Shown here in pieces: positions 9,649 to 58,712 of a stretch of DNA of 64,000 nucleotides. This DNA is from a virus. The translations under genes were made by a program, and so were the position numbers. Location: positions 1 through 64,000 of the IMG/VR virus record IMGVR_UViG_3300008120_009793; one strand, given 5' to 3'. The notes under the pieces were generated by a model. That model made no database searches. It was not told the DNA's origin and saw only the letters and a list, made by a program, of their open reading frames with translations. Position 1 is the first letter of the stretch; each line of letters starts with the position of its first letter.

Positions 9649-9671
9649 TTATTAATCTTATATTCTTTTTT

Positions 9672-9680
9672 CTATATATC
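9672..9680 (-). promoter_or_regulatory. Promoter-like motif GATATATAG
   Basis: The recurring motif on the minus strand, 23 bases before the MoxR ATG. It lets MoxR be transcribed separately from its VWA partner. Confidence 0.5.
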
Positions 9681-9683
9681 TTT

Positions 9684-10604
9684 TTAGTAAACTAGATCGG
9701 TTCTATTTCCAAACGGAACTACAACATTAGGATCGTTGTTTGGGTAATCCTGATGTATTATAATCCACATCACTTTTTTATCATAGGTGCTGATTCCATA
9801 ATCATTCGATGATGGCCATCCTCCTGATGTTGGATAACCGTCAGTAAAGAATACAACTGGGCCCATATTTACCTGACCTAATAGATTCTTCTCTATCCAT
9901 TGGAAAGGTTCAAGAAAGCTAGTTCCTCCTCCTCCGTATGCTTTATTAACCTTAATGTTTTCACCTCTTTCTACTTCAGTCACCGGTTCATATACCTTAG
10001 TATCAAAGAAAAGAACGTAAGTTTTTCTTGGATTAAATTCCTCTACGATTGCATAAGCCTCGTTAATAAATACCTCCAATTCTTTTTGGGAGATGGATCC
10101 TGAAGTATCCACGATCAGGGTTAGAACATCAAAACCTTCTTTAACTCTTTTGGTACCCCATAAAACCTGTCCTCTACTTAGGAACCTTTTGTTAGGTAAA
10201 AAATATTCTCTTTTAGCGGAAAGGCCGGTAACAAATCTCTTCAAATCACCCTTCCAATCAACTTTACCTGCGTTGAATTTGTCCAGAGATTTTTGTAATT
10301 CTGGGGGAAGTCCACCAGATCTTCTTGCCTTTTCGACCTCCCTTCTCCATTTTTCCTTTAATTCATCTATGTTTTCCGGATCAACGTCAATTACCCTAGG
10401 TTTTTCACCAGCTTGGTTTCCTGCTCCTCCGGCGTCTCCTCCGTCCTCGTCGTCCCAGGGTTTATCAGGGGAAGGGGGAACAGGAAAATCCTCAATCTTA
10501 GGGGGAGGAGGAGACGGTGGGGTCCCAGGGGGAGGTGGTGGTGGGGGTGGTTCCGGTTCAAATTTTACTGATACCTTCCTTAATTCATTAATATCTATTT
10601 TCAT
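9684..10604 (-). CDS. VWA-domain protein (DUF2201 C-terminal type)
   Basis: The 306-residue protein begins with a proline-rich stretch (residues 17-36, mostly Pro) and an acidic Gly-rich linker. A helical segment and a von Willebrand A domain with an intact MIDAS metal site follow: D166-T-S-G-S170, T228 in GGGGTS, and D255 in FFTDG. In bacterial DUF2201 proteins this VWA-like part follows a metallopeptidase-like part in one chain; here the two parts are separate genes, six bases apart. It likely partners with the MoxR ATPase encoded next. VWA/MoxR pairs act as metal-dependent adaptor and ATPase. Confidence 0.85.
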   Translation of the reverse strand: MKIDINELRKVSVKFEPEPPPPPPPPGTPPSPPPPKIEDFPVPPSPDKPWDDEDGGDAGGAGNQAGEKPRVIDVDPENIDELKEKWRREVEKARRSGGLPPELQKSLDKFNAGKVDWKGDLKRFVTGLSAKREYFLPNKRFLSRGQVLWGTKRVKEGFDVLTLIVDTSGSISQKELEVFINEAYAIVEEFNPRKTYVLFFDTKVYEPVTEVERGENIKVNKAYGGGGTSFLEPFQWIEKNLLGQVNMGPVVFFTDGYPTSGGWPSSNDYGISTYDKKVMWIIIHQDYPNNDPNVVVPFGNRTDLVY

Positions 10605-18130: not shown

Positions 18131-19111
18131 TTAGAGATCGTTATACAAATCATCCAAGCTTCCAGAAGATGCAGAAGTCTTCTTAGCAGGTGATGCTGGT
18201 TGCATTGCTTCAGCTTCTTCTAGACTTTCTGTATCGGAGAAGAAATCTGCTTCAGCAGACTTTTTGACCTCCTTTTTCATCGGGTTTGGATTGGCACTTG
18301 ATGCAGATGGTTTGGAATCCGGGGATCCTGAGAAGATTTCAGATAACATTCTTCCGTCTGGAATGGTGTTGCGAATAATTGAGTTAATTTTTTCCCTGTC
18401 TTCGTCGCTCCATTCTTTGTAATCGTATTTTTCAACTAGATCCTGTGGACCTGCTTTTAAGTATTCAACGATTCTTTTTTGATCAGCTTCGCTTTTTTCA
18501 ACAGGAGATCCTCCGATGGAAATTGGCCCTTTCTCACCAACAAATTGGCAAAGATCGTAATTGTTCCAATCCCCTACTTTTCTAACATGCACACCAAAAT
18601 TCTTACCTTCAAACAGATCGAAAGGGTTGCATGGAGTACCATATTCTGGCTTAATTTGTTGCTCGATCATATCAGCAACCTTTTTACCGAATTTGAAAAC
18701 CATAATTTTGCCTTCCAATTCAGGTTTGCTTGGATCCTTAACTACTTGAATCAATGCATAGTAATCCTCCTTACGCGAGAAAGACTTAGCAAGCTCTTGA
18801 TCCTTAGCAGATGGAGAGTTTTTTAACTTCCAGAAGATGTCTTTTAGTATTGATTTTTTACCTACAGTTGATGGACAGTCAGCAACAAAGTTACTGTTGT
18901 CTACTGGATCTTTCAACCACACATAATATTTGTGGATTTTAGATTTTTTGGGATTTGCGATGTTTGGGAGGAATCTAATCAAAGATTTATAAACTCCGTC
19001 CTTTCCAAGTTCTGGATAGGGTTTGTAAATGTTAGCGTCGCCGCCTTGAGCTTGGGGTTCTGGTTTCAGAAAGTCCTCATTGTCCAAACTAAAAATGTCA
19101 AAATTTTCCAT
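18131..19111 (-). CDS. 32: gp32-like single-stranded DNA binding protein
   Basis: The 326-residue protein has the T4 gp32 order: an N-terminal region, then an OB-fold core (YKSLIRFLPN, KIHKYYVWLKDP, DCPSTVGKKS, IMVFKFGKKVADMI, NPFDLFEGKNF). A flexible Ser/Pro-rich stretch and an acidic C-terminal tip (SGSLDDLYNDL) follow, the part that in gp32 contacts replication partners. The zinc-binding Cys set of T4 gp32 is not obvious, so the core may lack the metal. It protects single strands in replication and recombination with the neighbouring primase, UvsY and UvsW. Confidence 0.9.
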   Translation of the reverse strand: MENFDIFSLDNEDFLKPEPQAQGGDANIYKPYPELGKDGVYKSLIRFLPNIANPKKSKIHKYYVWLKDPVDNSNFVADCPSTVGKKSILKDIFWKLKNSPSAKDQELAKSFSRKEDYYALIQVVKDPSKPELEGKIMVFKFGKKVADMIEQQIKPEYGTPCNPFDLFEGKNFGVHVRKVGDWNNYDLCQFVGEKGPISIGGSPVEKSEADQKRIVEYLKAGPQDLVEKYDYKEWSDEDREKINSIIRNTIPDGRMLSEIFSGSPDSKPSASSANPNPMKKEVKKSAEADFFSDTESLEEAEAMQPASPAKKTSASSGSLDDLYNDL

Positions 19112-19170
19112 GTTTTTTCTAAATTTTTTTAAATTAACTAAAATTGATTCCTAAGTTATACCTAAGTGTC

Positions 19171-19839
19171 TCAAAAAGTTTCCCCTAAAATTTGTTTTCC
19201 GTATAAACTAATCCAAGTGGCATCTATCAAATCTGAACACGGGGTCTCCACTTCCTTGTTTTTTTTAATCCAGATATCCTTGTTTTGTTTCAACGGAGAA
19301 ACAAGAGGACTTAGGAGATTATCCTCACCGTATTTATCTATAAGAGCTAAATAAAGTTCGTCCTTTTTTGCATTACCCTTGAGGGCAAATTTTTTAATTG
19401 CGGTAGGAGAATAAACATAAAGATTCTTGTATCCTACCAATTCAGCTATCCTCTCTCTTACCAAAGCAGTACACATGGAAATATCAATAAGAGAATTTCC
19501 AGAGCTTCCGAATGAAATACCCTCCATGAATACCACAGATTCGTCAGTTATAAAGGGTATAAGAGTCATCATGAAATTATCAGCTATGATAGAAAAGTTT
19601 TCCAGTTTGATCCTTTCTATCTCCCAATATTCACCTTCAATCTTGCTTTTTTCCCTTACAGTAAGGGTAAAATTAGAATCTTCCCCGAATATTTTAAAAG
19701 GAGATCCCTCCTTTGCAAGAATATTCCCAATCTTTTTGGTTGTTCTGTGGCAAGATCCCCAGTTTGCCCCATGCTCGCTAAGGGAGCACCAGGCTGGGGA
19801 ATTTAAAGAAAAATCCACCCCAATAATGTTTTTACCCAA
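19171..19839 (-). CDS. RuvC-like RNase H-fold nuclease (probable Holliday junction resolvase)
   Basis: The 222-residue protein shows the RuvC-type catalytic acids: D9 in IIGVDFSLNSP, E106 in VVFMEGISFG, and D203/D206 in SDLIDATWIS. The segment KFALKGNAKKDELYLAL corresponds to the conserved K-x2-tG-x-g-xA-xK-x-x region. Such enzymes cut branched DNA symmetrically. T4 uses the unrelated endonuclease VII (gp49), so this would be a replacement for it. It overlaps the structural gene upstream by 8 bases, at the border between structural and replication genes. Confidence 0.8.
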   Translation of the reverse strand: MGKNIIGVDFSLNSPAWCSLSEHGANWGSCHRTTKKIGNILAKEGSPFKIFGEDSNFTLTVREKSKIEGEYWEIERIKLENFSIIADNFMMTLIPFITDESVVFMEGISFGSSGNSLIDISMCTALVRERIAELVGYKNLYVYSPTAIKKFALKGNAKKDELYLALIDKYGEDNLLSPLVSPLKQNKDIWIKKNKEVETPCSDLIDATWISLYGKQILGETF

Positions 19840-20383
19840 TTTCTAATTTTATATCGACGTAGTTACATCTAAAGCCCACACTAAAAGTGGAGAACTGAGG
19901 TGTCGTGCTAGAATAGTTCAATTGTACTTCAGATAGCGATGTATATATCGGCTGCTGAAATTTCACAGTGGACATAATAATGCCCTCATGGTCTAACAAA
20001 TGAAGAGTTAAATCTGGTAGGTATTCGTTCTCGTTTTGAAAATCTAAAAAATCTACTATGCTTTCATACATAATCCAATAATTGATGAATCCCTCCCCAA
20101 GCTTAAATGTGACGTTGAAATCTCTTCTGATTAGATTTTGTATAGTGGTTGCACTTTTGTAGTTCTGCTTATATCCCCCAGGTCTAGTTTGTTCGACAGT
20201 ATCAATGGTTTGAAATGTCGGAAAAGATACCTGTTGAATTGTTGAATTCATAAAATCCTTCAGTGTGTCATAAGGAATTGGCATTCTTTTAACGTAAGCT
20301 AAATACTTTTCTTCCAGTTTGGACGAATAAAATCCCTTTGGGAGGTTAAATATAAAAGCATTCTGTCTTGAATTTAATAACAT
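19832..20383 (-). CDS. Probable tail tube or tube-associated structural protein
   Basis: The 183-residue protein is mostly beta-strand. Segments such as RRDFNVTFKLGEGFINYWIM and YESIVDFL, then FSTFSVGFRCNYVDIKLEI, recall tail tube-fold proteins of contractile tails. The resemblance is general and the family is not certain. It is the last structural gene before the replication block and overlaps the RuvC-like gene by 8 bases. Confidence 0.5.
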   Translation of the reverse strand: MLLNSRQNAFIFNLPKGFYSSKLEEKYLAYVKRMPIPYDTLKDFMNSTIQQVSFPTFQTIDTVEQTRPGGYKQNYKSATTIQNLIRRDFNVTFKLGEGFINYWIMYESIVDFLDFQNENEYLPDLTLHLLDHEGIIMSTVKFQQPIYTSLSEVQLNYSSTTPQFSTFSVGFRCNYVDIKLEIG

Positions 20384-20400: not shown

Positions 20401-22716
20401 TTATAAATAGAACTGTTGTCCCATATCATTACTAGGTTTTAAACCCATCTGATCATAATCAATAAATCTACTTCCTCCTCCCCCGCCAACTGGATATCTA
20501 ACAGATTCATAAGGCTCGTAAATTTCTCCAAGATAAGAAGAGTATTGGTTAAACATTGAGCTTCTGATTCCATTAGAATCTGGATGAACTAATCTGACTG
20601 CATTTAAGAAGAATTTATTATTCATTCCCTCAAACAGATCATTCCCAGGTCTTCCTGGTATTGTATAATAATCAGCAATTTCCTGAACACTCTTACCCGC
20701 TGTTTCGTCCATACTGATTAAATTGGATAGAGTGTCGATGTTATATCTGATTGGTTGTTTAGGTTTAATAACGGGTTCTTCGACTGTTAATATTGGTTTA
20801 ACTACGGGCTCAACATTTAAAACAACCTGATCTTTTTCTATATCAAAGTAATCTTTAGGCTGTTGAGGAATTATATCGACTACCGGTTCTTGCGTTATAA
20901 CGGAAGGAGCTATTTCAACAACTGCAGGTGCAGGTGCAGGAGTAGCGGTTGTGGTTGCAACTGGTTTTTGATCTCTCTCAGAAGGTAATATCCAAGTTCC
21001 GTGATAAACAGATGTTTCTATTCCATTGTTTGTTTTAGAAACTATATGAAAATCGCGTGAACTAAATGCAGATATTTTTTTAGATTCAGATTCTACAAGT
21101 TTAAAAACTAATTCTCCCTTGCTTGGATTTTGGAAAGTACTGTCAGTCATACTTGATATTTTAACAGTTTTATTGTCACCCCCCTCAAAAACAAGATAAA
21201 AATCAGAATTAGATCCAAGATCTAAAACAGTATTTTCTTTTCCTTCATTTTTGATGAATATTCTAAACTTATAATAATTATCATAAGGGTTAACAACTAT
21301 TTTGGATTTTCCCTGTCCATATGCAATAGTTGCATCAGTAGTTGTTGATTGTGTTAATCCTCCTAAATTATCAATTGTCAAATCCTCTTGAGAAATGTTT
21401 ACAGATTCTCTTTCAAAGAAAGCAGGAACATATTTCGTAATTACCCTTTCAATTGGATTTACATTTAATGTATATGCTTTAGATACAACAGGCTCTGTTA
21501 CTTTGTTATAAACTTTTTGAGGATAAGGCTGATGTAAAAGATTTATTTTCTTTATTGAAGGTCCATACTTATCAACTTCAGTGCTTGTAACCGATGCTAT
21601 CCTCATGATAGAAACATTACTGAACTTGTTCACCAATCTCATAGTGTAAATAATACTAAAGCTGGTTGCTTTAGGATTTACAATTACAGGCCTATAGATA
21701 TAAGGTGAATTAAAATCTTTATCCTGAAGAAGCTGTAATTTTTGTGTTGATATTTGTCTTTGTCCTACCTGCTCTTTTACTTCTAAATCATGTATGATGT
21801 AATAAATATTACCTAGAGAACTTTCGGTATAAATAAAATCCTCAATGAAGTTTTCTTTCCAAGTTGGATAATATTTAAAATAATCAAAGTCGTTATCTTC
21901 AACAACATTAGCAGCTAAATCACCGTATTCATCAAAAGGAGTAACTGTTGCAATACTATTTAAAGCTGTATAGAAATAATAGAAGCCATTTAATTCTTGC
22001 GTATTCTCTATTTCATAAAGACTAACGGTGAAAGGCTGATTTCTAATAAATCCCTTACCGTCTGAGCTGATCTTTGCTGCTACTGTTCCACTTTCTAATC
22101 CAGATCCAGCTTGAGTGTCATACTCATATGTTATACTTGAATAAGAAGGTATTTTAACCTCTACATAATTATCATAAATTCCTGCATTAAAGTATATGGG
22201 ATTCGGATTGGGTGTTGTTATGTCTAAATCTCCAGTTTCATAAGTTACCTGCGATACTGTGCACTTTTTACCATTTCTTTCCTGGAACTGGACTTGCATG
22301 ATTACTCCATCACTTAAACCGAAATCAAATCCACTTAAAAAGTGGTATCTGATAGTATCGTAATAAACATTTAAATTGGTATCAAACGTAACTGGAAGAT
22401 TCGCAGGATCCGTTAATTTATCATCATAGTCTAAATACTGTACTAATCGATCAATGTCAAGCTTAACAAACGTGTTTTGTGATATTTGTACAGAACTTCT
22501 GTCCCTAACATTACCAGTTGTTTGTGTGTCCTCGTTTCTGTTTGTTATCTGTACGGCATTATTAAAATATCCGTTTACCATTTTTTCAAAGCCAACTACA
22601 GAGGGCCCAAAAATAACCTGATGGTATTCGGGATTTGGCTGAACACCATATCTATACTCCATAAGTAAATATGGAGATAGACTAAAAAATTTGCTAGTAT
22701 AGTTAAAACTTGACAT
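20401..22716 (-). CDS. Large virion structural protein
   Basis: The 771-residue protein is Tyr/Asn/Thr-rich and beta-strand-rich in its first about 570 residues, then has a Pro/Val-rich linker (TPAPAPAVVEIAP, EPVVKPILTVEEP). A C-terminal domain of about 100 residues (IDTLSNLISMDETAGKSVQ) and a Gly run before the end complete it. This composition is typical of tail fibre or baseplate-attached proteins, but I recognise no family. A GATATATAAGA motif lies five bases before the ATG. Confidence 0.7.
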   Translation of the reverse strand: MSSFNYTSKFFSLSPYLLMEYRYGVQPNPEYHQVIFGPSVVGFEKMVNGYFNNAVQITNRNEDTQTTGNVRDRSSVQISQNTFVKLDIDRLVQYLDYDDKLTDPANLPVTFDTNLNVYYDTIRYHFLSGFDFGLSDGVIMQVQFQERNGKKCTVSQVTYETGDLDITTPNPNPIYFNAGIYDNYVEVKIPSYSSITYEYDTQAGSGLESGTVAAKISSDGKGFIRNQPFTVSLYEIENTQELNGFYYFYTALNSIATVTPFDEYGDLAANVVEDNDFDYFKYYPTWKENFIEDFIYTESSLGNIYYIIHDLEVKEQVGQRQISTQKLQLLQDKDFNSPYIYRPVIVNPKATSFSIIYTMRLVNKFSNVSIMRIASVTSTEVDKYGPSIKKINLLHQPYPQKVYNKVTEPVVSKAYTLNVNPIERVITKYVPAFFERESVNISQEDLTIDNLGGLTQSTTTDATIAYGQGKSKIVVNPYDNYYKFRIFIKNEGKENTVLDLGSNSDFYLVFEGGDNKTVKISSMTDSTFQNPSKGELVFKLVESESKKISAFSSRDFHIVSKTNNGIETSVYHGTWILPSERDQKPVATTTATPAPAPAVVEIAPSVITQEPVVDIIPQQPKDYFDIEKDQVVLNVEPVVKPILTVEEPVIKPKQPIRYNIDTLSNLISMDETAGKSVQEIADYYTIPGRPGNDLFEGMNNKFFLNAVRLVHPDSNGIRSSMFNQYSSYLGEIYEPYESVRYPVGGGGGSRFIDYDQMGLKPSNDMGQQFYL

Positions 22717-48119: not shown

Positions 48120-49844
48120 TTATGAATTACTATTTCTTATGAATTGCTTGTTCTTCATATTTACCTCTGTGTTGTAGGTAACAGGAACTGTTTTTCTAAT
48201 ATCTATATTGATTGAAGATAACTTGTTTAAATCCGCTCCTTTATCATAAAATAAACCAGCTCTGTCTGACCATCCGCCAGTAAGTATTACTATTTCATCC
48301 TTATCAAAAAGAATATCTCCAAAATCATCTAAACCTAAAACCGTTTTCTTTTTAGGATCTGTATCAGGAAGAGATTCTACACTTTTAGCATACAGTTCAT
48401 TTTTTTCAGATATAAAAAATAAAGTAACTGAATCTACCCCCGGAACAGATTCTACAATTGAAATTAAATCAGATCTAGGGATTTTGTCTCTTCTTCTAAT
48501 ACCTATAAAGTAATTGCTAATAGAATCAATGATTTGTCCTTTTATAGTATCAGGATCATAACCTTCAAAAACAGTTATGAGTATATTTAAAACATACCTA
48601 GAAATTTTAGGATCTAATATTCTTACTTCAGTAGTAACAATTTTCTGTCCGCTATCTTCGATTGCTTGAAGAAGTCTATTTTTTTGGAATTCTGTCAGCT
48701 TGAATTCTGTCTCTGCAATATCAAAATACGTTTCATTAGTTTTTAATTTCTGAGTTATATCAGGTACTAAAAGAACATAAATAATATTATCATCATCCAG
48801 ATATTGATCATCAAAGGTTGAAAAAGCCTCAATAATTGAGAATATACCAAATTTTTCAAAGTATGTAATATAATTATCGGGATTTGCTAAAACAAAAGAT
48901 CTTGAGGTTTTAGGAGCAAGAATTCTTGTAAGTTCTATGGATTCTTTATCGGTTCCTAACTGAGGTGCAACGGTGCAGTTTATTTTTAAATACTCCTGAA
49001 GGGAAACTGAATTACCGAAAGAATCCGTTCCGTCGTCGCTAAATTCAAATGCTATTTTTCCAGGTTCAAGAGAACTGATATTTCCTCCAGACCCTAGGGT
49101 TTCCAGATATTGTACCTGTATTGTGGATCCAGTAGGAGGGATTTTTCCAAAATTTAAATTTCCAAAAATTACGTCTATACCACTACTGATACCGGTTCTA
49201 ACCAAAACACCCTCTGCATTAAATGGAATATCATATAAAGAATCATAAACCTTCCATTCGTCACTGTCTACAAAAACTTTAACTTGAAAGTTGTCAATGG
49301 CGGAAGTAATCCTGTCAGACACGTTGTAACTTTGTAGTGATCTTCCGTTTCCTGTGAATGTCGAAGTTTTAATGCTTCCCTCTAATATTTCACAAGAAAC
49401 CTTGGAAGAAGAATTTAGATTAATCCTAGTATATTCCTGGGGAAAGTTTAAAACATAAGAAACGCCACCGTTAGAAAATTTAATTTGAGCATATCTAGGA
49501 ATTAGAATTGCTCCACCGCCTACAGTTGTTGCATCTGTTCCGTTCCATATAATTTCCACCTGGCCCCTTGCAGCAGTACTTCTGGAAGCGTTATGTCCAG
49601 CAAGAGCAGCAAGTCCATAAATTGAACTTTCCCTACTTGCTTTTCTAATATCAAGCTCAGTAATAGAATCCTCAATAAAGTAAAGGATTAGCTGAGAAAG
49701 GTTCTGCAGAACAAATAATATTTGTCCCCAAGCAGAAGCTACCGTAAATAATTGATTGGCTTGATTATATCTTTTCTGGATGATCTCAAGAGTATCCTGA
49801 AGAAGATCCTGAATTTTAGCCCGATTTTTTTTGAATAAATCCAT
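48120..49844 (-). CDS. 6: Baseplate wedge protein gp6-like (baseplate J family)
   Basis: The 574-residue protein contains ASRESSIYGLAALAGHNAS followed by RSTAARGQVEI, the hallmark N-terminal segment of T4 gp6-like wedge proteins (x-x-S-L-x-GLA.LAGHN..R...A.G). Long beta-rich repeats follow, with TTEVRILDPKISRYVLNILI and VPGVDSVTLFFIS in the C-terminal part, as in gp6/gpJ proteins. Gp6 forms the ring of the baseplate wedge. The gp25-like gene follows upstream by one base, as is common in contractile-tail gene sets. Confidence 0.88.
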   Translation of the reverse strand: MDLFKKNRAKIQDLLQDTLEIIQKRYNQANQLFTVASAWGQILFVLQNLSQLILYFIEDSITELDIRKASRESSIYGLAALAGHNASRSTAARGQVEIIWNGTDATTVGGGAILIPRYAQIKFSNGGVSYVLNFPQEYTRINLNSSSKVSCEILEGSIKTSTFTGNGRSLQSYNVSDRITSAIDNFQVKVFVDSDEWKVYDSLYDIPFNAEGVLVRTGISSGIDVIFGNLNFGKIPPTGSTIQVQYLETLGSGGNISSLEPGKIAFEFSDDGTDSFGNSVSLQEYLKINCTVAPQLGTDKESIELTRILAPKTSRSFVLANPDNYITYFEKFGIFSIIEAFSTFDDQYLDDDNIIYVLLVPDITQKLKTNETYFDIAETEFKLTEFQKNRLLQAIEDSGQKIVTTEVRILDPKISRYVLNILITVFEGYDPDTIKGQIIDSISNYFIGIRRRDKIPRSDLISIVESVPGVDSVTLFFISEKNELYAKSVESLPDTDPKKKTVLGLDDFGDILFDKDEIVILTGGWSDRAGLFYDKGADLNKLSSINIDIRKTVPVTYNTEVNMKNKQFIRNSNS

Positions 49845-49845
49845 T

Positions 49846-50217
49846 TTAAATTACCTTTATTCCCAATACAGGATTACCTTTGATAGCGAATTCAATAACA
49901 CAGCTATCTCTGGTTTCTCCTCTGAAAAAACCCACCTGAAAATCAATTTTGAGTATTCCTCTAGCAAAAGGACAGTAGGTATAAAGCTGTAAGCTGATTG
50001 CCTCTTCTAATTCTTGCTGATTGACCTCAAAATCGAAAATTAAAGATTCTAGATCTATACCAAAGAATGGGTCTCCTAAAACAGAACCAGGTTTAGTTAA
50101 CATGATCTGCTTTATCATTCCTATAGAGGATTCCACAACATCGTCGGTTTCTAATTTGTCCGGGACGTATAAGGGATCGTCAGGATTTCTAGGGTATATG
50201 TCAGTGATCTTTATCAT
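49846..50217 (-). CDS. 25: Baseplate wedge protein gp25-like
   Basis: The 123-residue protein shows the gp25/lysozyme-like wedge family pattern: SIGMIKQIMLTKPGSVLGDP followed by FFGIDLESLIF, matching the LL.T..GER...P.FG.g l..l.f signature, then a beta-hairpin end. Gp25 binds gp6 at the sheath-proximal wedge. The start is supported by a motif and a GGGAG stretch just before the ATG, one of the few Shine-Dalgarno-like leaders here. Confidence 0.88.
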   Translation of the reverse strand: MIKITDIYPRNPDDPLYVPDKLETDDVVESSIGMIKQIMLTKPGSVLGDPFFGIDLESLIFDFEVNQQELEEAISLQLYTYCPFARGILKIDFQVGFFRGETRDSCVIEFAIKGNPVLGIKVI

Positions 50218-50265: not shown

Positions 50266-51039
50266 TTAATTCCACTGTAAGAAATAGCTTGGGGTGTTTT
50301 CCGATTTAATCATATCCATTACCTCAGTCTTTTCTGTGGTTCCCTGTGCTGAAATAGCACTAGCGTTTATGGTAACCCCACCAGGTAATTGGTAACCAAA
50401 AGTTCCTAAAAGTCTCCCGATATTAATTTTTGCTTCTGCAAGGCAATATCTAACGAAAAGCTCATCAGAATATAGATTTTCCTCGGGAATGGCAATACAT
50501 GCCTTAATTCCCACATCCTTACCTCCAAGGGCTAAACCTGTGCTGGATGTTCGGCTAGGATCGCGTCCTAGGATGGTTAGCTTCTTCGTATTCTTGTTAT
50601 AATTGAAAGCATATGTTTCTAATAGGTATGCTTTTGCGAGGTCAAAAAATGAGTATAAAACGGTTCTATACACAAGGTTGTCTCCCACGAAGGGACTTAA
50701 CATAAGTTCAGATCCTAATAGCTTGGAATCTCCAAAATCTTTATCGGGTGTTCCAACTATACCAGATCCACCAACCTCCCTTACATCATAAACACTTATC
50801 ACGCATTCAGGTAGCTGAACCTGTCTAGTTGCTCTAAATGATTGATGTGAAAAAAGTTCTTTACCTAAAATAAAAATTCTATCCTCTACAGCATATTGAT
50901 AGTTGTCATAAAAATATGCTTTGGCCCTTTTGATGATTCTTTTAATTTCCCCGTCATTCAGAGCGTATGGTAAAGCGCAAGAATGTGAGATATCATCCTT
51001 TATTTCTTGAACTAATTGGTCTTCCGTAGTATTAGCCAT
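50266..51039 (-). CDS. Probable virion structural protein
   Basis: The 257-residue protein has a helical N-terminus (NDGEIKRIIKRAKAYFYDNY), a beta part around RQVQLPECVISVYDVREVGG and a helical segment LYSFFDLAKAYLLETYAF. Its shape and place among structural genes suggest a neck, head-completion or baseplate part. I do not recognise the family with certainty. It overlaps the amidoligase-like gene by one base (TAATG), implying coupled translation. Confidence 0.6.
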   Translation of the reverse strand: MANTTEDQLVQEIKDDISHSCALPYALNDGEIKRIIKRAKAYFYDNYQYAVEDRIFILGKELFSHQSFRATRQVQLPECVISVYDVREVGGSGIVGTPDKDFGDSKLLGSELMLSPFVGDNLVYRTVLYSFFDLAKAYLLETYAFNYNKNTKKLTILGRDPSRTSSTGLALGGKDVGIKACIAIPEENLYSDELFVRYCLAEAKINIGRLLGTFGYQLPGGVTINASAISAQGTTEKTEVMDMIKSENTPSYFLQWN

Positions 51040-52499
51040 TATTGATCATTATTTTTATACAATCTATTTATCGAAATAGAAGGAATTGTATTATTAAGGT
51101 TATTGAAATCGTCGCTTGGGCCAACTTGTCCTTCAATATTACGATCAGGAAATACTACATTCTTTAAGAATTTTTCCCCCTTGCCTTTGCCTTTGCTTTT
51201 TCCATCCGCATCATTTGTTATAATTTCTGTAGTGGAAGAAACCTGAGCAAGAGATGTGATGTACCCTGATCTAATTATACCCCCAGTAATTTCACAACTT
51301 ATTTCTTTATCTTTGGCATCTATATAAGAGTTATTAACAGTGTTTCCCAGACCCAGATCACAATCTAGAATTTTAGAATCTTCAATTTCATTATTCATTA
51401 CCAAATCAGTGTCCTCTATTTGACAATTTTTGAATTTACATCCAAAAGCTCTACACTTAGCTACGTTTCCTTCAATTTCACACTCAACAAGATCTAAATT
51501 TTTTATAATATTAGCTCTTGTAGTTTTTCCGTCTTTTAGCTGATATCTTGAAATTTGTGTGTCATAATTTAGGAATCCAGAGGTAATTTCATTCTCTACT
51601 ATTAAATTGTAAAGAATGTCTCTAATGTCGTGAAAATATGTTTTAATAATCTGTAAATCTTCTCTTAAATCAACAGTTACATGAAGATCTGGATAGTTTC
51701 TAACAAACGTTTCAGGGTCAATAAAGCTCTCAGTTTCTTTATATAATTTGGAAATTAGAGCGCTTAGATCCGATGTTTCTTTTTGATTTAAGGTGTCGTT
51801 CTGTAAAAGGGTTTTAAAAGTATGAGTTATGGTGTGATCTATAATTTCTTTTATCTCAGTGTATTTTTTCTGGTAATCAGTCCCTCCCATGTATCTCACC
51901 TCGATATAACCCTCTTCTAATTTAGTAAGGTTGATTCCCATGTTTTTTTCAGTGTATACAACATAAGAATTTCTATCAGCAATAGTTCCGTCATATTTTC
52001 TAATGAACTTGTTAGCCGGAATTATTCTTTTTATAGATTTAGCATAGAGAGATCCTCTTCTTTCAGGAAATCTGCTCCACACATACTCTTCATCATACCC
52101 TAAAACAAATTTTAAAGCATTTAAATTTTTAAGGTCTATTAGATCTGGGTATTTAAGACGATCGAAGCTTAATCCAAATTGCAGTGCGCATTTTTCATTC
52201 GTGTATCCGTTTTCTTCTATCCATTTTAGAATTCTAATTAAAACGGGGATTGCCTCGAAGTAATCCATCGGACCAGTAATTAGCTCTACCATCTTGGTAC
52301 CGCCAGAAAAATCTGGTTCTAATTTAAAAACGTCCCTTGTTGGCTTAAATCTGGAGTGGTATCTCTTGAAAAGCTTAATTTCCTTCCCAATCTCGTCGCC
52401 TATTCTTTGCACCATCTCCGAACGCGAAAAATTGGACATGAACTCAAATTCAAATCCAATTTTTGCTGCGTAGAAGAAATTTTGATCAAGTATTCTCAA
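51039..52499 (-). CDS. Amidoligase-like protein with C-terminal beta-helix-like repeats
   Basis: The first about 300 residues of 486 resemble the amidoligase (COOH-NH2 ligase, glutamine-synthetase-like) superfamily: KIGFEFEF at 13-20, FKLEPDFSGGTKMVELITGP, then GYIEVRYMGGTDY. Such enzymes join carboxyl and amine groups using ATP. Residues about 335-415 carry short repeats rich in Cys/Asp/Glu with a five- to six-residue rhythm (VECEIEGNVAKCRAFGCKFK, NCQIEDTDL), like pentapeptide or beta-helix repeats. A Lys/Gly linker follows. It lies among virion genes and overlaps the S1-protein gene by 14 bases. The enzyme call is by motif only. Confidence 0.6.
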   Translation of the reverse strand: MRILDQNFFYAAKIGFEFEFMSNFSRSEMVQRIGDEIGKEIKLFKRYHSRFKPTRDVFKLEPDFSGGTKMVELITGPMDYFEAIPVLIRILKWIEENGYTNEKCALQFGLSFDRLKYPDLIDLKNLNALKFVLGYDEEYVWSRFPERRGSLYAKSIKRIIPANKFIRKYDGTIADRNSYVVYTEKNMGINLTKLEEGYIEVRYMGGTDYQKKYTEIKEIIDHTITHTFKTLLQNDTLNQKETSDLSALISKLYKETESFIDPETFVRNYPDLHVTVDLREDLQIIKTYFHDIRDILYNLIVENEITSGFLNYDTQISRYQLKDGKTTRANIIKNLDLVECEIEGNVAKCRAFGCKFKNCQIEDTDLVMNNEIEDSKILDCDLGLGNTVNNSYIDAKDKEISCEITGGIIRSGYITSLAQVSSTTEIITNDADGKSKGKGKGEKFLKNVVFPDRNIEGQVGPSDDFNNLNNTIPSISINRLYKNNDQ

Positions 52500-53610
52500 T
52501 TTTCTGTTTTAGATATAATTTAGAACTTTGTAGCTCAACATCTAAAACAGTACAGAGAATTTCGGAACCGACTTCGTACTCTTTAGGTGGCTTAGCTAAA
52601 TTGTCCTTTTCCACCAGTCCCGGGATCCCATTTTCGAGTTTTACAAAAACTCCAAAATTCTTGATCTTAGAGACGGTTCCTCTATATATTTTATTTTCTT
52701 TGTCTTCCGATAAAGATATGTCCCTTAATTCCTGAAGTTCCCTTTCTTTCCCCTCTGGTGGGTTTAATTTTAAAACTATTCTGTTTGGATTTCTAAAATC
52801 TGAAACATAGAAGGAAACTGAGCTTCCTGGTTCCATATGCATTTTTAAACCCGCAGATTCAAATTCTTCCGCCGGAATTAACCCTGTGTAATATTCGTCC
52901 CATTCAACAAAAACTCCTGCAGGTGATGTTCCAGTAACGGTTCCACTGTATTGCTGTGTTATCGAAAGTTCCTCTACTTTTTGATCTATGATGTGTTTTA
53001 GATATTTTTTGAAAGATACTACAAAAATATCTCTTCTTTCATCATAAGTCTCAATCATCACATTGATGGTTTTCCCTACAAAAGATTGGAAGTCAATAAT
53101 TCTATTTGCAGCTGCAAGTGATCCAGGTAAGAAACACTTAATTCCTGAGAGATTAACCATAAATCCTCCAGGACAAGTTGATTCGATTCTTACAGTGTAT
53201 GCGCTCTTCTCATCTTTGATAGATTTAGAAAGTTCATTCTTAAGGGAGTTTTCATATCCTGCAGCAAGAGATCCATTATAAATGCCGCTGCGGTCTTTGA
53301 ATACAACAACGTCAATTTCGGTTCCTTCCATGATATCCATAGGGGGATAACCTAATCTCCTAATTGCTTTTTCTTCCTTAAGAATATCGATAGAAACTGA
53401 TTGTCCATTTACGGATTCACCAATTGCACTGTTGTCTCTGATTCTTGTTATCTTTACTCTTAAAACTTGATTTTCTTCAAGTTCTTTTGATGTGAATGGA
53501 ATTGATTTTTGTGTGAAATTTGAATTGAAATGACCTTCATACAAAGCATCCATTATTGCTCTTTCCTCTGGAGAGTATTCTTCTCTAGTATAGGTTCTTT
53601 TTTTAGCCAT
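52486..53610 (-). CDS. Multi-domain S1 RNA-binding protein (ribosomal protein S1-like)
   Basis: The 374-residue protein contains three clear S1 OB-folds: residues about 138-202 (YTVRIESTCPGGFMVNLSGI), 219-282 (YSGTVTGTSPAGVFVEWDEY) and 308-370 (YRGTVSKIKNFGVFVKLENG, IPGLVEKDNL). A degenerate fourth lies at about 47-115. The N-terminus is basic with YTREEYSPEERAIM. Tandem S1 domains occur in ribosomal protein S1, where they bind mRNA and recruit it to the ribosome. Here the protein may alter translation of phage or host mRNA. The location between an amidoligase-like and a structural gene is unusual. Confidence 0.88.
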   Translation of the reverse strand: MAKKRTYTREEYSPEERAIMDALYEGHFNSNFTQKSIPFTSKELEENQVLRVKITRIRDNSAIGESVNGQSVSIDILKEEKAIRRLGYPPMDIMEGTEIDVVVFKDRSGIYNGSLAAGYENSLKNELSKSIKDEKSAYTVRIESTCPGGFMVNLSGIKCFLPGSLAAANRIIDFQSFVGKTINVMIETYDERRDIFVVSFKKYLKHIIDQKVEELSITQQYSGTVTGTSPAGVFVEWDEYYTGLIPAEEFESAGLKMHMEPGSSVSFYVSDFRNPNRIVLKLNPPEGKERELQELRDISLSEDKENKIYRGTVSKIKNFGVFVKLENGIPGLVEKDNLAKPPKEYEVGSEILCTVLDVELQSSKLYLKQKIENT

Positions 53611-53632: not shown

Positions 53633-56600
53633 TTAATTTATTGATATTTTAGTCCCAAACCCTAGATAGATTTCAGAATCTGGCAGAGGATAAAATAATT
53701 TTCCCGCACCGGCAAAGAATTTAAAGCCTCCTGAGATATCAACAGCAGATCTTAAGAACTCGTCCATGAAAACAACATAAAAAGGATTCTTTAAACTCAT
53801 TCTGTCCCAGCGTGGGATATCTTCGTTGTTCCATAAAGGATTTAAGATATTAATAATATTTCTACCCAGTACAACTACCACAGGCCAAGGGACCTTAGAG
53901 AATATTGCATCCTGTATATCCAGATACTTTTGAAGAAATTCACCAGGGATAGGAATTCTTGGAGGGGTTTTAAATTTATCCCAAAGTTGGGTAAATGCTA
54001 TATCAGAGGCTGGATGAGTTGGTAAGAAATTCATAGTGAATTCTATATAATCCTGATTCCTTGCAGGGATGGGTATCTTTGGAATAGAATCCAAAGCAGG
54101 TATCTTAGCTGTTTTAGTAAAATTCTTAACAATATTATCTGACATTGTTTTAATGTCACTATCTGATAACGTTTCGAAGTTTTCAAGAACCCCTGGCAAT
54201 AATTTAGTGATCATTTCAGGATTTACAGAAGACATTGCTCCATCAACCAAGAATTTACTAATCACTTTTCCTGGAATGATTATAGGGGGAATACCTCCAG
54301 GGCCAATCGGAGAAACAGGTGAAGCGCTTTTCTTAGGAGGAATGGAAGGGAGGTTTAACGAAGAAGACAAATTAGTAAATGATTTCTGCATGTTTTTCAT
54401 GCTTGCAGTATCAGGAATGGAAAAGTTTTTTAAATCAACAGGAAATTTTGATAGCGAACTATTAATTACGTTCTTTGTGATCATTTTAAGATCCCGCTGT
54501 CTTATAATCTTATTCTCAGAAATTGCTAAATTACTTACTATAGATGTTAGTTGATCTGTATTTAATTTTATACTACTTGTGGCAAAGTTTTTTAATTGAG
54601 AAATAACAGGATTTGGTATTTCTTCTATTCCAGAAGGCAAAGGTACACCTGCACCTAAAATTCTAGGGGCGGGTGTTATTTTAGCTTTAAACGAAAGAAG
54701 TTTTTTACTACTTAAAGGAGAATCCTCACCTTCAAAAACCTCAGTTGCACTTTTCTTAACTAAATCTTCTAATTTTTTTACGTCCTCGGGAGAACTAGAA
54801 AGATCCTTCAGTTTATTATTAAATTTAGCAACTATCTTAGAATTATTAGGAAGATTTTTGTTTAAATCGTCTAATTCTTTTGGGGTAGGAATTTTTATAG
54901 AATCTACTCCTCTAAGGATCCTAGATAAAAGATTTATCTTGGGAATTTTATCCGGGATAACACCAAGTTTTCTTTTAGCATCTAAATCCCTTAAAGATTT
55001 TATAGGCTGGGGCAGATCAACTAAAAGATTTTTTGATTTTTTAGGGAACTGAATATCTGGAATGTCTACCGCTCCCGTCAAATATTCTTTCATAATATCT
55101 TTTAAGGCTGATATTTTTTCACCGTCTATAGATTTTAGAAAGTTGTCTATTTCCTCCTTCTCTTTTTTAATATCTCCACCCTCTAAAGCCATTTTTCTTT
55201 TCTTTTCTAGTATCTTAGATTGAGACTCCTCTTTCTTTTTTGTTATCTTGTCTTGTAATTTTTGGATTTTCCCCATGTTTACAGGCTTGCTATAATTTGC
55301 AAGTCTCTTTTCAAGATTCGAAACAACTTCTCCGAAAAGTCTTTTAGGATCATCAACGTCATCTTTTCCAAGGTTGGAAAAAGGAAAAAGAAAGTTTGGT
55401 ATTCCTTTAGAAAGCATCTTTTTGTAATTTTCGAGAGGATCGTTAGCAACAGGATCAGATTTTCTAGGAATGAACCTAAACCCTCTGAGTCCAAGAAGAA
55501 ACATACTATTCCCAGTTAAAAAATCATGGAAAAAAACTAGGGGGCTAGGCATGAATCCCCCGATGAAAGGAACGAATATAACTATGACCCCAATTCCTAT
55601 CGGAATAACAACAGGATCTACCTTCGTCCATACCATTGGCATAGGAATTCTAATAAAAGGTAACCCGTCTAATGGATTCACTATCGGTGGAGGTAAAGGT
55701 ATAAAAGATGGCGGAAGATAACCTACCGGCCAATATTTTAAACCCAGATTCGGTAAAAAATTTGCGGGATTTTCTATAGGGGGAAGACCAGCAGGGAGGG
55801 GGAGTAATCCCACTTTATTTAAATTTTTACAAAACTCTTTCCAATAGCATTTGGTAAAAAGATTTGGACAATCCGGAGATCGATGTGAAGCACATGTATC
55901 TTTTAATTTTAAACTCTGCCCAGCAGGACCGCAACATTCTGTTGGGCATTTCTCTTCTTTTTTAGTGGCACAACTTATGGAATTAGCTTTGGTGGAAAGT
56001 CCCTCTGGAGAATTCTCCTGATCTAACTTAGTTATCTTCTCAGCTATTGACATTAAAGAATTTTCAATTGCAGTAACCCTTGATTTTATTCCATCTGAAG
56101 CTTCTTTAAGAAGTTCACTATTTTTCTTTACAGAAGACACGCTGATCGTAAAATAATAATCCGCTATTTTTTCTGCTAAGGCATCCGAAGATTTTTTTAA
56201 ATCCAGTATTTTATCCTCTATTGTTTTCTTTCTATCGTTATACTTTTGGTCCCATTTTGTTTTAAAGTCTTGCCAGAATTCTTCAAATTCCTTGTTTGGA
56301 TTTCCTTCCTTGTCGGTTTTTGCTGGTTTTATATCGGCAGATTTTCTAGCATCATTATCTCCTCTTTCCTGAGCAGTAAAAAATATCCAAGGACTTGCAG
56401 ATGTCTCTATTAGATTGGAAAATAAAAATCCATGATCAGATTCTATTGATTTAATAATTTGACCCTTGCTTTTGTTAGAGTTTTCTATATCGCTAACGAA
56501 ACTATAGTAGTCTGTTTTATTCTTAGGATTTTCATCCTTGATTTTTAAAAAAGATTCAAAATCTTTGAAAAATGAGGTATCCTGCCCTCCTAATAATCCA

Positions 56601-57937
56601 CCCTTGCTGTACTCCATTCCTACCTGGAGTTTAGATGTGTCGACCTTTTGATAATCTTGACTCATCAGATCGTTATTAACCTCCATTTTTACTCTCTCAT
56701 ACGGAATTTTTTTCCCTAAGCCGTGTGGAAAATCTATTCCAAATGATATTCCAATGTATTTACTACCAGGAAGTATTATTTTTTTAGTAGACTGAAATCT
56801 TGAAGAAAATTGATTTAATTTCTTTATATAATCGTCAGCTCCGGTTCCAAGTACTAAATTGATTGCTAATTTTAATGGATCTCCTTTTTTACCCGCTTTG
56901 CTTTTCTTTTCAAATTGGGAATATAATTCGTCATAATAATTATGAATTATTTTATAATAAAACAAAACCTCCTCCAGCTCTTTTTCTGCTTTTTGAAGTC
57001 TAGCTTTTTCTTCATTCTTTTCCCTAACTTCATTAAATATGGATTTAGTTTGCTTTAAGCACGAATTAATAGTGTCTGAAATATCTTCTATATCAGGTTC
57101 AGGATCGATAGGTGTTTCTGGAGAAGGAATTTCGGGCTCACATATTTCTTTCAAAAACTGAGTTAAGTCGTTTTTTGTGAAAAGCGATTCCCCCGTTTCA
57201 GGATTAATTGGAATATCAGGCTCACAAAAAACCTCATCAGCGATTTCAAATACATTGTTATATTCTTCCTTTTCGTCGTTTAGAAGATTCTCTAACTTTT
57301 TTAAAAGATCATCCTCATCTATATAAGTTCCTTTCTTTTCGCAGCTCTTTACCTTTTTAGATTTTATTCTGTCTCTTAGTCTTTGAAGTATTTTGGAGAG
57401 GTTGACCTTAGGAGGAGCTATATGAAAAAACAAGGGCTTACCCTTATATGTTATGATATTGAGAGGAAAATTAAAGCCTAGAATTTTAAAATTTCTTTTT
57501 TTTAAATTAGGGCTTTTAACTTTGATGCCTATAAGATCTAAATCAAGATTATCAAAAAGCATTTCCTTGGCTCTTTGTAATCTATCTTGCAAAGAAATTC
57601 TTTCAAAATATTTCTCAAATGAGTCATTATTAGAAAAATCCGGAATTTCTTTAAGATCTGAAGTTAAATTAAGTTTTTCTAAAATTTTCCAGATTAATCT
57701 ATTTCCTAATTCCTCGCCCTCGTATTTACATATAATATCATTTATCTCATTATCAGTAAGTATTAAATCTTCAGGATTTAATGAATTATTAATTTCTTCC
57801 CCAGCGTTAATTATATCTTCCTCCTTCCCGAGAGGATCAGGAATGGAAGACAATCTTGCAGCTAACTCTTCAACAGTTATAGTACCGTTTTCGAGATCTT
57901 TTACCCACTTATCAAGGTTTTCTAAATTATTGCTCAT
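53633..57937 (-). CDS. Large virion protein with Cys-rich and hydrophobic regions (1434 aa)
   Basis: The first about 650 residues are helical and charged with coiled-coil stretches (RLQKAEKELEEVLFYYKIIH). A Cys-rich segment at about 653-703 contains over ten cysteines (CPTECCGPAG, CASHRSPDCPNLF). A Pro-rich hydrophobic region follows at about 715-820, with VVIPIGIGVIVIFVPFIGG, and then helical and Pro-rich parts to the end. Coiled coil plus hydrophobic segments recall tape-measure proteins, but the Cys cluster and Pro runs do not fit that well. It ends 22 bases before the S1-protein gene's start and overlaps the gp5-like gene by 11 bases. Confidence 0.6.
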   Translation of the reverse strand: MSNNLENLDKWVKDLENGTITVEELAARLSSIPDPLGKEEDIINAGEEINNSLNPEDLILTDNEINDIICKYEGEELGNRLIWKILEKLNLTSDLKEIPDFSNNDSFEKYFERISLQDRLQRAKEMLFDNLDLDLIGIKVKSPNLKKRNFKILGFNFPLNIITYKGKPLFFHIAPPKVNLSKILQRLRDRIKSKKVKSCEKKGTYIDEDDLLKKLENLLNDEKEEYNNVFEIADEVFCEPDIPINPETGESLFTKNDLTQFLKEICEPEIPSPETPIDPEPDIEDISDTINSCLKQTKSIFNEVREKNEEKARLQKAEKELEEVLFYYKIIHNYYDELYSQFEKKSKAGKKGDPLKLAINLVLGTGADDYIKKLNQFSSRFQSTKKIILPGSKYIGISFGIDFPHGLGKKIPYERVKMEVNNDLMSQDYQKVDTSKLQVGMEYSKGGLLGGQDTSFFKDFESFLKIKDENPKNKTDYYSFVSDIENSNKSKGQIIKSIESDHGFLFSNLIETSASPWIFFTAQERGDNDARKSADIKPAKTDKEGNPNKEFEEFWQDFKTKWDQKYNDRKKTIEDKILDLKKSSDALAEKIADYYFTISVSSVKKNSELLKEASDGIKSRVTAIENSLMSIAEKITKLDQENSPEGLSTKANSISCATKKEEKCPTECCGPAGQSLKLKDTCASHRSPDCPNLFTKCYWKEFCKNLNKVGLLPLPAGLPPIENPANFLPNLGLKYWPVGYLPPSFIPLPPPIVNPLDGLPFIRIPMPMVWTKVDPVVIPIGIGVIVIFVPFIGGFMPSPLVFFHDFLTGNSMFLLGLRGFRFIPRKSDPVANDPLENYKKMLSKGIPNFLFPFSNLGKDDVDDPKRLFGEVVSNLEKRLANYSKPVNMGKIQKLQDKITKKKEESQSKILEKKRKMALEGGDIKKEKEEIDNFLKSIDGEKISALKDIMKEYLTGAVDIPDIQFPKKSKNLLVDLPQPIKSLRDLDAKRKLGVIPDKIPKINLLSRILRGVDSIKIPTPKELDDLNKNLPNNSKIVAKFNNKLKDLSSSPEDVKKLEDLVKKSATEVFEGEDSPLSSKKLLSFKAKITPAPRILGAGVPLPSGIEEIPNPVISQLKNFATSSIKLNTDQLTSIVSNLAISENKIIRQRDLKMITKNVINSSLSKFPVDLKNFSIPDTASMKNMQKSFTNLSSSLNLPSIPPKKSASPVSPIGPGGIPPIIIPGKVISKFLVDGAMSSVNPEMITKLLPGVLENFETLSDSDIKTMSDNIVKNFTKTAKIPALDSIPKIPIPARNQDYIEFTMNFLPTHPASDIAFTQLWDKFKTPPRIPIPGEFLQKYLDIQDAIFSKVPWPVVVVLGRNIINILNPLWNNEDIPRWDRMSLKNPFYVVFMDEFLRSAVDISGGFKFFAGAGKLFYPLPDSEIYLGFGTKISIN

Positions 57938-58712
57938 TACTCTTAGTTAACTTAACCACATCGGACGTAGAGAGCTGTTCGTAGCTTTCTGCAAGGGTAG
58001 CCATACACCCAGGACAGGAAGGAACTTTAGCATCTACCGCTGCTGCGAGTTGTTTTAAAAACATCCATAAAGGTTCCGCTAAAACTGCAGAATAAACAGG
58101 GGAATGACCAAGCTTTGTTGTTTTACCGTCTGCCCAAACTTCGTTGCTGCTTTGTTTAATTCTAGTTACTGCAGTGCTTTCTATTTCAGAATTTGCATAC
58201 TCTGTAATTTTACCACCTCTAAATTCAAGGGTAGATGTTTGGCCAGCATGTGTTATTGTTATTGAATTATCATTAGAAATTACCACAGTTGACTCTTTTA
58301 AATCTATTACGAGTCCTTTAGCAACAGTGTAATATATTTTTAGCTGTTCTATTCCGTCATAGATTAGAGAATGAGCACCTTCATAAGATGCTTTTATTTC
58401 TTCTATTAAATCGGAAGATAATTCTTGTACTGCTTTGTATTCGGGGGCATAGTAGTTCCCGTTATTGAATTGGACATGGACAACTGCACCTAATTTAGGT
58501 ATACTAACCCTTCCAGATCCACCATTGTCACCAAATGAAATATCAAATCTTTGGAACGCCCATGGTAGATCCGTATCTGCAACATCGTCAAATACTCCAA
58601 AAACCTTAACTTTACATCTTGCCCTAAATTCCGGATCTTTGTTATCCACAACAACACCCAAGAAATGCTGGGCTCTTTCAATATTTGATTCTTGAATATT
58701 CTGTACAGACAT
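57927..58712 (-). CDS. 5: Baseplate hub/spike protein gp5-like (OB-fold)
   Basis: The 261-residue protein begins with a short leader and an OB-fold typical of gp5/VgrG spikes: HFLGVVVDNKDPEFRARCKV, FGVFDDVADTDLPWAFQRF, SIPKLGAVVHVQFNNGN. Its beta-rich remainder (SLIYDGIEQLKIYYTVAKGL, VISNDNSITITHAG) may start a triple helix. The lysozyme domain of T4 gp5 is absent, and no long needle repeat is visible. The final part contains CPGC. It sits with the gp27-like hub gene further upstream. A hairpin with a T-run lies directly before its ATG. Confidence 0.8.
   Translation of the reverse strand: MSVQNIQESNIERAQHFLGVVVDNKDPEFRARCKVKVFGVFDDVADTDLPWAFQRFDISFGDNGGSGRVSIPKLGAVVHVQFNNGNYYAPEYKAVQELSSDLIEEIKASYEGAHSLIYDGIEQLKIYYTVAKGLVIDLKESTVVISNDNSITITHAGQTSTLEFRGGKITEYANSEIESTAVTRIKQSSNEVWADGKTTKLGHSPVYSAVLAEPLWMFLKQLAAAVDAKVPSCPGCMATLAESYEQLSTSDVVKLTKSNEQ

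Follow-up and report, generated by a model that had tools for sequence, protein, structure and literature searches.

The window analysed here is a stretch of 64,000 nucleotides, given on one strand, which forms positions 1 to 64,000 of the 87,133-base virus record IMGVR_UViG_3300008120_009793. Its subject is an open reading frame (ORF) for a relative of the cellular ribosomal protein bS1 (rpsA). A first-pass annotation, made from the sequence alone, had placed a ribosomal S1-like protein with three to four S1 domains at 52486-53610, in the midst of virion genes, and had suggested that it could favour phage mRNAs or be packaged. The coordinates are exact: the ORF lies on the minus strand, begins with ATG and encodes 374 amino acids (aa). 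A profile search and an AlphaFold2 model both give four S1/OB domains, preceded by an N-terminal helix, and the gene is laid out as follows.

52486..53610, minus strand: phage protein of 374 aa related to bS1, a helix followed by four S1/OB domains (profile, fold and Pfam evidence)
53515..53571, minus strand: N-terminal helix, residues 14-32 (model)
53257..53466, minus strand: OB domain 1, residues ~49-118 (model), strongly diverged from bS1
53002..53199, minus strand: OB domain 2, residues ~138-203, with the motif CPGGFMVNLSGIKCFLPGSLAAANRIIDF; the most conserved domain
52753..52953, minus strand: OB domain 3, residues ~220-286, with the RNA-face His replaced by Pro
52504..52689, minus strand: OB domain 4, residues ~308-369, with two aromatics kept and His replaced by Glu

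Pfam S1 (PF00575) matches the protein over three stretches (expect value, E, 5.7e-20). The AlphaFold2 model was built from a 55-row alignment and has a mean predicted local distance difference test score (pLDDT) of 80.4 and a predicted template modelling score (pTM) of 0.57, a value at which domain orientations are unreliable. When ten family members are combined into a profile, it matches residues 13-347 of E. coli bS1 colinearly, corresponding to domains 1-4 (E 2e-49). Outside bS1 it scores best with Rrp5 (1.8e-22), which also has multiple S1 domains, followed by GSP13 (1.7e-10) and PNPase (6.1e-9). NCBIfam models of cellular rpsA match all 10 of these members. The relation to ribosomal S1 that had been proposed also holds for the fold, as the five best Foldseek matches of the model all represent bS1 within ribosomal complexes (9gut, E 3.4e-23) and the best solved structures are bS1 in 30S complexes. 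The whole-chain superposition on 9gut has a root-mean-square deviation (rmsd) of 21.6, since the domains are set differently; OB1-OB2 can be placed on 30S-bound bS1 (9guq) by VIA-align with a Z of 14.6 and an rmsd of 3.8 over 169 residues. Phage S1 proteins head the matches in BFVD, a database of predicted viral structures. Three of them (A0A8D9CG03, A0A6J5NIG6 and A0A7S9STL2; E 1e-27, 3e-23 and 3e-29) are full-length fold matches, compared by predicted structure only, and are annotated as 30S ribosomal protein S1 or S1 motif protein from uncultured marine and Caudovirales phages; such phage S1 proteins are already annotated in public tables. A PHROG scan with the protein gave one match, to the S1 domain of a nuclease (0.0077). 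The opposite outcome, a link solely to structural OB-fold proteins, was looked for and did not appear: no structural or virion OB protein stands among the PHROG matches or the 50 listed PDB and BFVD rows, although absence from such a list does not amount to exclusion.

Like cellular bS1, the window S1 has domains 1-4 in the same order, the N-terminal helix and the domain 2 signature around GGF and FLPGS. It differs in the altered RNA face of domains 3-4, in a conservation peak at domain 2, in its separate place in the tree, and in the absence of domains 5-6: bS1 of the FCB group has six domains (PMC6705787) and the window protein has four.

A first viral scan for relatives found 24 loci, and a profile scan at least 570 confirmed relatives among 597 stretches, the best 80 of which were kept. 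A protein identical to the window S1 is present in a 219 kb record, and Prevotella-infecting Lak phages and uncultured huge phages (462-735 kb) carry relatives at 28-35% identity. In a 39-row tree, 25 phage rows form one group (100/100) on a long stem; it includes the window S1, the Lak copies and those of LR745206, LR756500, LR756501, LR756502 and LR756504, records which, to judge by their sizes, are probably genomes of the study by Al-Shayeb et al. On the other side of the branch stand 13 cellular bS1 and the bS1 of Microcystis phage MaAM05. Because this last protein falls outside the phage group, the tree suggests that bS1-type genes entered phages at least twice. The root of the group is unsure, given the long branches and one phage row (L028) beside the cellular group. 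Three of the 13 cellular rows (L114-L116, whose tree names 'Clostridia1', 'Bacteroides' and 'Clostridia2' are our guesses) come from records labelled phage and were taken as host DNA. Bacterial-type rpsA is also listed on other 'phage' records (MT83xxxx 'Bacteriophage sp.', CAKLQH/CAKLQF, OR845856 and OR84xxxx). We rejected these genes as phage S1: they are probably host DNA, which is what the three that were read (L114-L116) look like.

A recent capture from a Bacteroidota host was likewise rejected, as the phage rows stay together on their long stem, away from the three Bacteroidota-type (Bacteroidales-type) bS1 rows, and domain 2 is 32-33% identical to the latter, no higher than to E. coli (33%). 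Counter to this, an N-terminal F[DN]W motif is shared by all three Bacteroidota-type bS1 and all three Lak-type copies, and is found in none of the 10 other cellular rows. It occurs in 13 of the 19 sequences of the sister clade (14/19 with a wider pattern; some of the others are cut at a contig end) and is absent from the window clade (0/48) and the LR huge phages (0/5). The sharing is suggestive of Bacteroidota ancestry or mimicry, and is not proof of either. The motif was seen at the N-termini of L091, L096, L104, L107, L113, L026, L130 and L033; Bacteroidota-type bS1 have it in the form NFDWD or NFDWDAFEKG. A genome scan, which relied on two phage-derived patterns and hence was blind to ordinary bS1, returned a single 3.4 kb contig from a Clostridium metagenome-assembled genome; this contig carries a Lak-type S1 (L033, 1022-2266) and is probably misbinned phage. 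The family was not found in Flavobacterium phage MaF61 or Tenacibaculum phage pT24 (0/2), in a search that had no positive control.

The phage proteins are conserved in a different place from their cellular counterparts. Mean pairwise identity for domains 1-4 is 34, 41, 52 and 46% in the 13 cellular bS1, versus 54, 79, 58 and 63% in the window clade (48 distinct sequences), 58, 84, 74 and 57% in the sister clade (19), and 27, 46, 43 and 20% in eight huge-phage and Lak-type rows. Identity peaks at domain 3 in the cellular proteins and at domain 2 in the phage ones, a shift that is clear in the two large clades and slight in the remaining phage rows. Domain 2 of E. coli bS1 flanks the mRNA exit channel, and its residues F120/F130 and K117 contact mRNA (PMC10123108). 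The F130 position is Phe in 75/75 phage and 13/13 cellular rows, the F120 position is Phe throughout the window clade (48/48), and K117 is kept in all 19 members of the sister clade. In the helix, the alignment pairs Y24 with F9 of E. coli bS1; this position is Tyr in 75/75 phage rows and aromatic in only 5/13 cellular rows. The register here is uncertain, and structure alignments suggest another.

The RNA face of an S1 domain comprises Phe19, Phe22, His34, Asp64 and Arg68 (PMC6705787). Members of the window clade all keep the second aromatic of domain 3 and both aromatics of domain 4 (48/48 each), and retain a basic residue at the Arg position. The sister clade is a near mirror image, with the domain 3 F-F-H set complete in 19/19 and the domain 4 set lost. 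Judged by these residues, one half of the RNA-binding end is better preserved in the window clade and the other half in the sister clade. The domain 3 set is also present in the Lak-type copies (3/3), and its His in four LR and three Lak-type copies (7/7); LR756500 has Pro. The earlier expectation that the protein binds mRNA as S1 does is unsafe, as the canonical RNA-face residues of domains 3-4 are partly lost in the window clade.

The gene does lie among virion genes, as had been noted: a hub, a gp6-like wedge and an Ad2-like neck gene are nearby, together with a weaker gp25-like call.

57927..58712, minus strand: baseplate hub, Phage_base_V OB domain (Pfam 5.4e-5, just over the cut-off; phrog_37871 1.2e-12)
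53633..57937, minus strand: faster-evolving protein of 1434 aa, 22 bases upstream of S1
52486..52499, minus strand: 14-base overlap of the S1 stop with a TTG start of the next gene (ORF calls)
51039..52499, minus strand: 486 aa tail-block protein, amidoligase-like (phrog_33777, 2.4e-7)
50266..51039, minus strand: neck / head-tail adaptor, Ad2-like (2.2e-7)
49846..50217, minus strand: gp25-like baseplate wedge, a weak call (0.005)
48120..49844, minus strand: gp6-like baseplate wedge (2.1e-29)

The match of the 486 aa protein to Amidoligase_2 (PF12224) is weak: it was obtained for 5/9 relatives (best E 0.00093), with the window copy not among them. Modelled without an alignment the protein has a pLDDT of 33.5, and a PDB profile search with it gave no matches. 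The identical 14-base overlap recurs in 21/80 adjacent pairs of the two genes, with starts set by the longest ORF, and translation of the 486 aa gene may be coupled to that of S1. Low ratios of nonsynonymous to synonymous substitution (dN/dS) for S1, 0.012 against L003 and 0.027 against L004, fall within the range of the tail genes and point to a working gene; against L007 the ratio is 0.061, with dS saturated.

Gene order was compared in 84 contigs, which are the best matches of the profile viral scan plus the loci of the first scan; some are nearly identical and weaker relatives are little represented. The 486 aa gene directly follows S1 in 80 of them, with one gene between in three and a contig end in the last. 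A hub lies within two genes upstream of S1 in 72, falls outside the available stretch in 11 and is absent in one. In LR756500 (462 kb) the hub is likewise followed by S1, then the 486 aa gene, then the neck gene, but further ORFs are interspersed, three of which separate S1 from the amidoligase-like gene. In LR745206, LR756502 and LR756504 the 486 aa gene sits amid other tail-block genes with S1 at least ~49 kb off; its surroundings in LR756501 showed no other gene of the block. A general partnership of S1 with the amidoligase-like gene was therefore rejected, the two being ~49 to 442 kb apart in these four genomes; a tblastn search for the 486 aa gene in Lak found none. The Lak-C1 S1 (one of two Lak records, L026) adjoins genes for a tRNA-His guanylyltransferase, a DnaB-like helicase and an RNA ligase, and gp6 is ~158 kb away. 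In most of the lineages compared, Lak excepted, S1 thus has late or tail-type neighbours; like a guest it occupies varying positions, mostly among late-type genes and in Lak among others.

Bacteroidota ribosomes do without Shine-Dalgarno (SD) pairing, and bS1 is the usual suspect as its replacement. In the window, SD-like 4-mers occur in 4/45 leaders versus a shuffled mean of 4.2, and 5-mers in 0/45 versus 1.3, which agrees with the first-pass annotation that most leaders here lack an SD sequence; the ORF list behind these counts is automatic and may contain false genes. Between positions -17 and -10, A is found at each position in 18-32 of the 45 leaders, as raw counts not set against base composition. 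Adenines at -12/-13 help initiation, and bS1 domain 4 has been placed nearby (PMC6847099). Bacteroidia ribosomes hide their anti-SD, and with bS1 F. johnsoniae ribosomes show a two-fold increase in initiation amplitude on an SD-less message (PMC9976891).

The Bacteroidota setting proposed earlier stands in part. Lak phages and phages over 634 kb are predicted to infect Bacteroidetes (PMC7162821), and in a search of the phage collection relatives of the gp6-like protein turned up in phages of Flavobacterium, Tenacibaculum and Chryseobacterium. Sphingomonas phage PAU has one too, and a count adds records from Aeromonas (19), Synechococcus (5) and Rhizobium (5), mostly below the listed rows, so that a Bacteroidota host is likely, not certain. 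The S1 itself does not group with the three Bacteroidota-type bS1 rows. Another small-subunit protein, bS21, is encoded in 6 (L012, 244,850 bases, at 18962-19114; L055; LR745206; LR756501; LR756502; LR756504) of the 27 S1-bearing records examined. Many of the 27 are fragments, and no bS21 was found in the 219 kb record whose S1 is identical to that of the window.

We tentatively favour an explanation in which the window S1 is not a true bS1 and is instead a modulator of late initiation that derives from bS1 and probably docks on the ribosome. The protein would be a shortened bS1 descendant, reduced to domains 1-4, that has long evolved inside large phages. Its operon position suggests that it is expressed late and made together with tail proteins. 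It could then dock on the host 30S near the mRNA exit through its helix and domains 1-2, displace or supplement the loosely bound host bS1, and tune initiation towards the A-rich, SD-less late messages of the phage, for which it may have a preference. With the helix and domains 1-2 of bS1, and if produced along with the tail proteins, it would be in a good position to dock at the mRNA exit and to alter the choice of messages loaded. Chen et al. argue likewise for phage bS21, an initiation protein unrelated to the window S1 whose gene lies in the late structural block of Bacteroidota phages (PMC9723584). In favour of this explanation count the colinear bS1 match in sequence and fold, the conservation of domain 2 with its F120 and F130 positions, the A-rich leaders without SD excess, the bS21 genes in some of the records, and the Lak neighbours, which are not tail genes.

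The idea of an S1 that redirects initiation has already been published for huge phages, where Al-Shayeb et al. (2020) describe possible rpS1 with up to six S1 domains, rare SD sequences and a model of steered translation (PMC7162821). Several S1 domains, few SD leaders and a common tree group are all found for the window S1 as well; most of the huge-phage and Lak copies differ from it in keeping the domain 3 His and in having other neighbours. Microcystis phage PhiMa05 / MaAM05 also carries a bS1 relative, of 359 aa (PMC13157829), which, unlike the window S1, adjoins genes for bL21 and bL27 and no tail genes. In the literature searched, no mention was found of a single phage S1 group, of the S1/amidoligase-like tail-block pair, of the conservation shift to domain 2 or of the clade-split loss of RNA-face residues. 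Having kept the domain 1-2 end, domain 2 foremost, while parts of the RNA-binding end drifted, this widespread phage family provides a natural experiment as to which bS1 part is important on SD-independent Bacteroidota ribosomes. The window S1 is a testable protein of manageable size, and a large phage may steer host protein synthesis through a reshaped S1 in its tail-gene block.

Several observations weigh against this modulator of initiation. As to bS1 character, the window S1 reaches 92.7 bits with TIGR00717 (rpsA; E 1.9e-26) and misses the curated score of 577 by far. The lead of domain 2 is slight in the eight huge-phage and Lak-type rows (46 vs 43%). At the domain 2 pocket, K117 is N or P in 48/48 of the window clade, and F120 is Phe in only 3/13 cellular rows. 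The first aromatic and the His of domain 3 are missing throughout the window clade (0/48 each), as is the domain 4 His (0/48), with Glu in its place in 48/48. The uS2 contacts of E. coli bS1 can mostly not be recognised in this clade, F5 being replaced by L or M and F79 varying, and K43 aligns with G in 48/48; the alignment of domain 1, on which these comparisons bear, is weak. Finally, S1 lies among tail genes in 83/84 contigs. A tail-tube-like gene (homologue of window 19832-20383) is next to or near it in LR756501 and LR756504, in the latter with homologues of window 20401-22716 and of the gene for a single-stranded DNA-binding (SSB)-like protein at 18131-19111. Two genes upstream of S1, LR745206 and LR756502 have homologues of ORFs 32827 and 27022 of the window, which are large and late-type.

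These genomic neighbours also count for the strongest rival, in which S1 repeats were re-used in a virion or tail-assembly protein, as a baseplate or neck component or an assembly factor, and RNA binding was abandoned in the window clade. The near-constant 486 aa gene behind S1, selection equal to that on tail genes and the loss of the RNA-face His from both domains 3 and 4 in 48/48 would all fit. We nevertheless consider it rather unlikely: the neighbours change from lineage to lineage, S1 is at least ~49 kb from the amidoligase-like gene in three huge phages, where the latter stays in the tail block, and sits with genes of RNA and DNA metabolism in Lak, the bS1 domain order is preserved, and the PHROG matches and listed PDB and BFVD rows include no structural phage protein.

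With a conserved OB2, eroded RNA-face residues in domains 3-4 and no domains 5-6, the protein might instead antagonise host bS1, its N-terminal part filling the bS1 site while mRNA is poorly delivered, so that bS1-dependent host messages are shut off. This is distinctly unlikely. The domain 3 F-F-H set persists in the sister clade and the Lak-type copies, so the family at large is probably able to bind RNA; the SD-less phage leaders would themselves seem to need bS1-like help, and expression from a late operon would come late for host shut-off. Quite improbable, too, is an RNA chaperone or cofactor acting off the ribosome, in the manner of host bS1 with Q-beta replicase or T4 RegB (roles cited in PMC13157829). 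The two domain 4 aromatics kept in 48/48 and the RNA ligase and tRNA-His guanylyltransferase genes near the Lak copy would suit such a role, but no RNA enzyme was recognised by Pfam or PHROG among the window genes adjoining S1, and the conservation of OB2 would be left unexplained. A tether between ribosome and tail assembly, with OB2 and the helix at the 30S mRNA exit and the altered domains 3-4 of the window clade binding tail-assembly proteins in place of RNA, so that phage-tagged ribosomes would both produce the baseplate parts and pass them on, is very remote, even with the precedent of a Streptomyces contractile tail-like particle that contacts the 30S (sheath with S16; PMC10286715).

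Two minor observations concern the tail block and the leaders. One related contig (L019) has a 393 aa reverse-strand ORF at 9390-10571, between its neck and gp25 genes, where related contigs hold other extra ORFs. In the window, ATATATAA, a pattern chosen after the leaders had been viewed, lies within 50 bases upstream of 7/46 ORFs, with 9 copies on both strands and 0.16 expected if they were evenly distributed. It resembles a promoter motif, which would imply very short leaders; examples on the minus strand stand upstream of 11456, 14852, 22716, 26994 and 50217.

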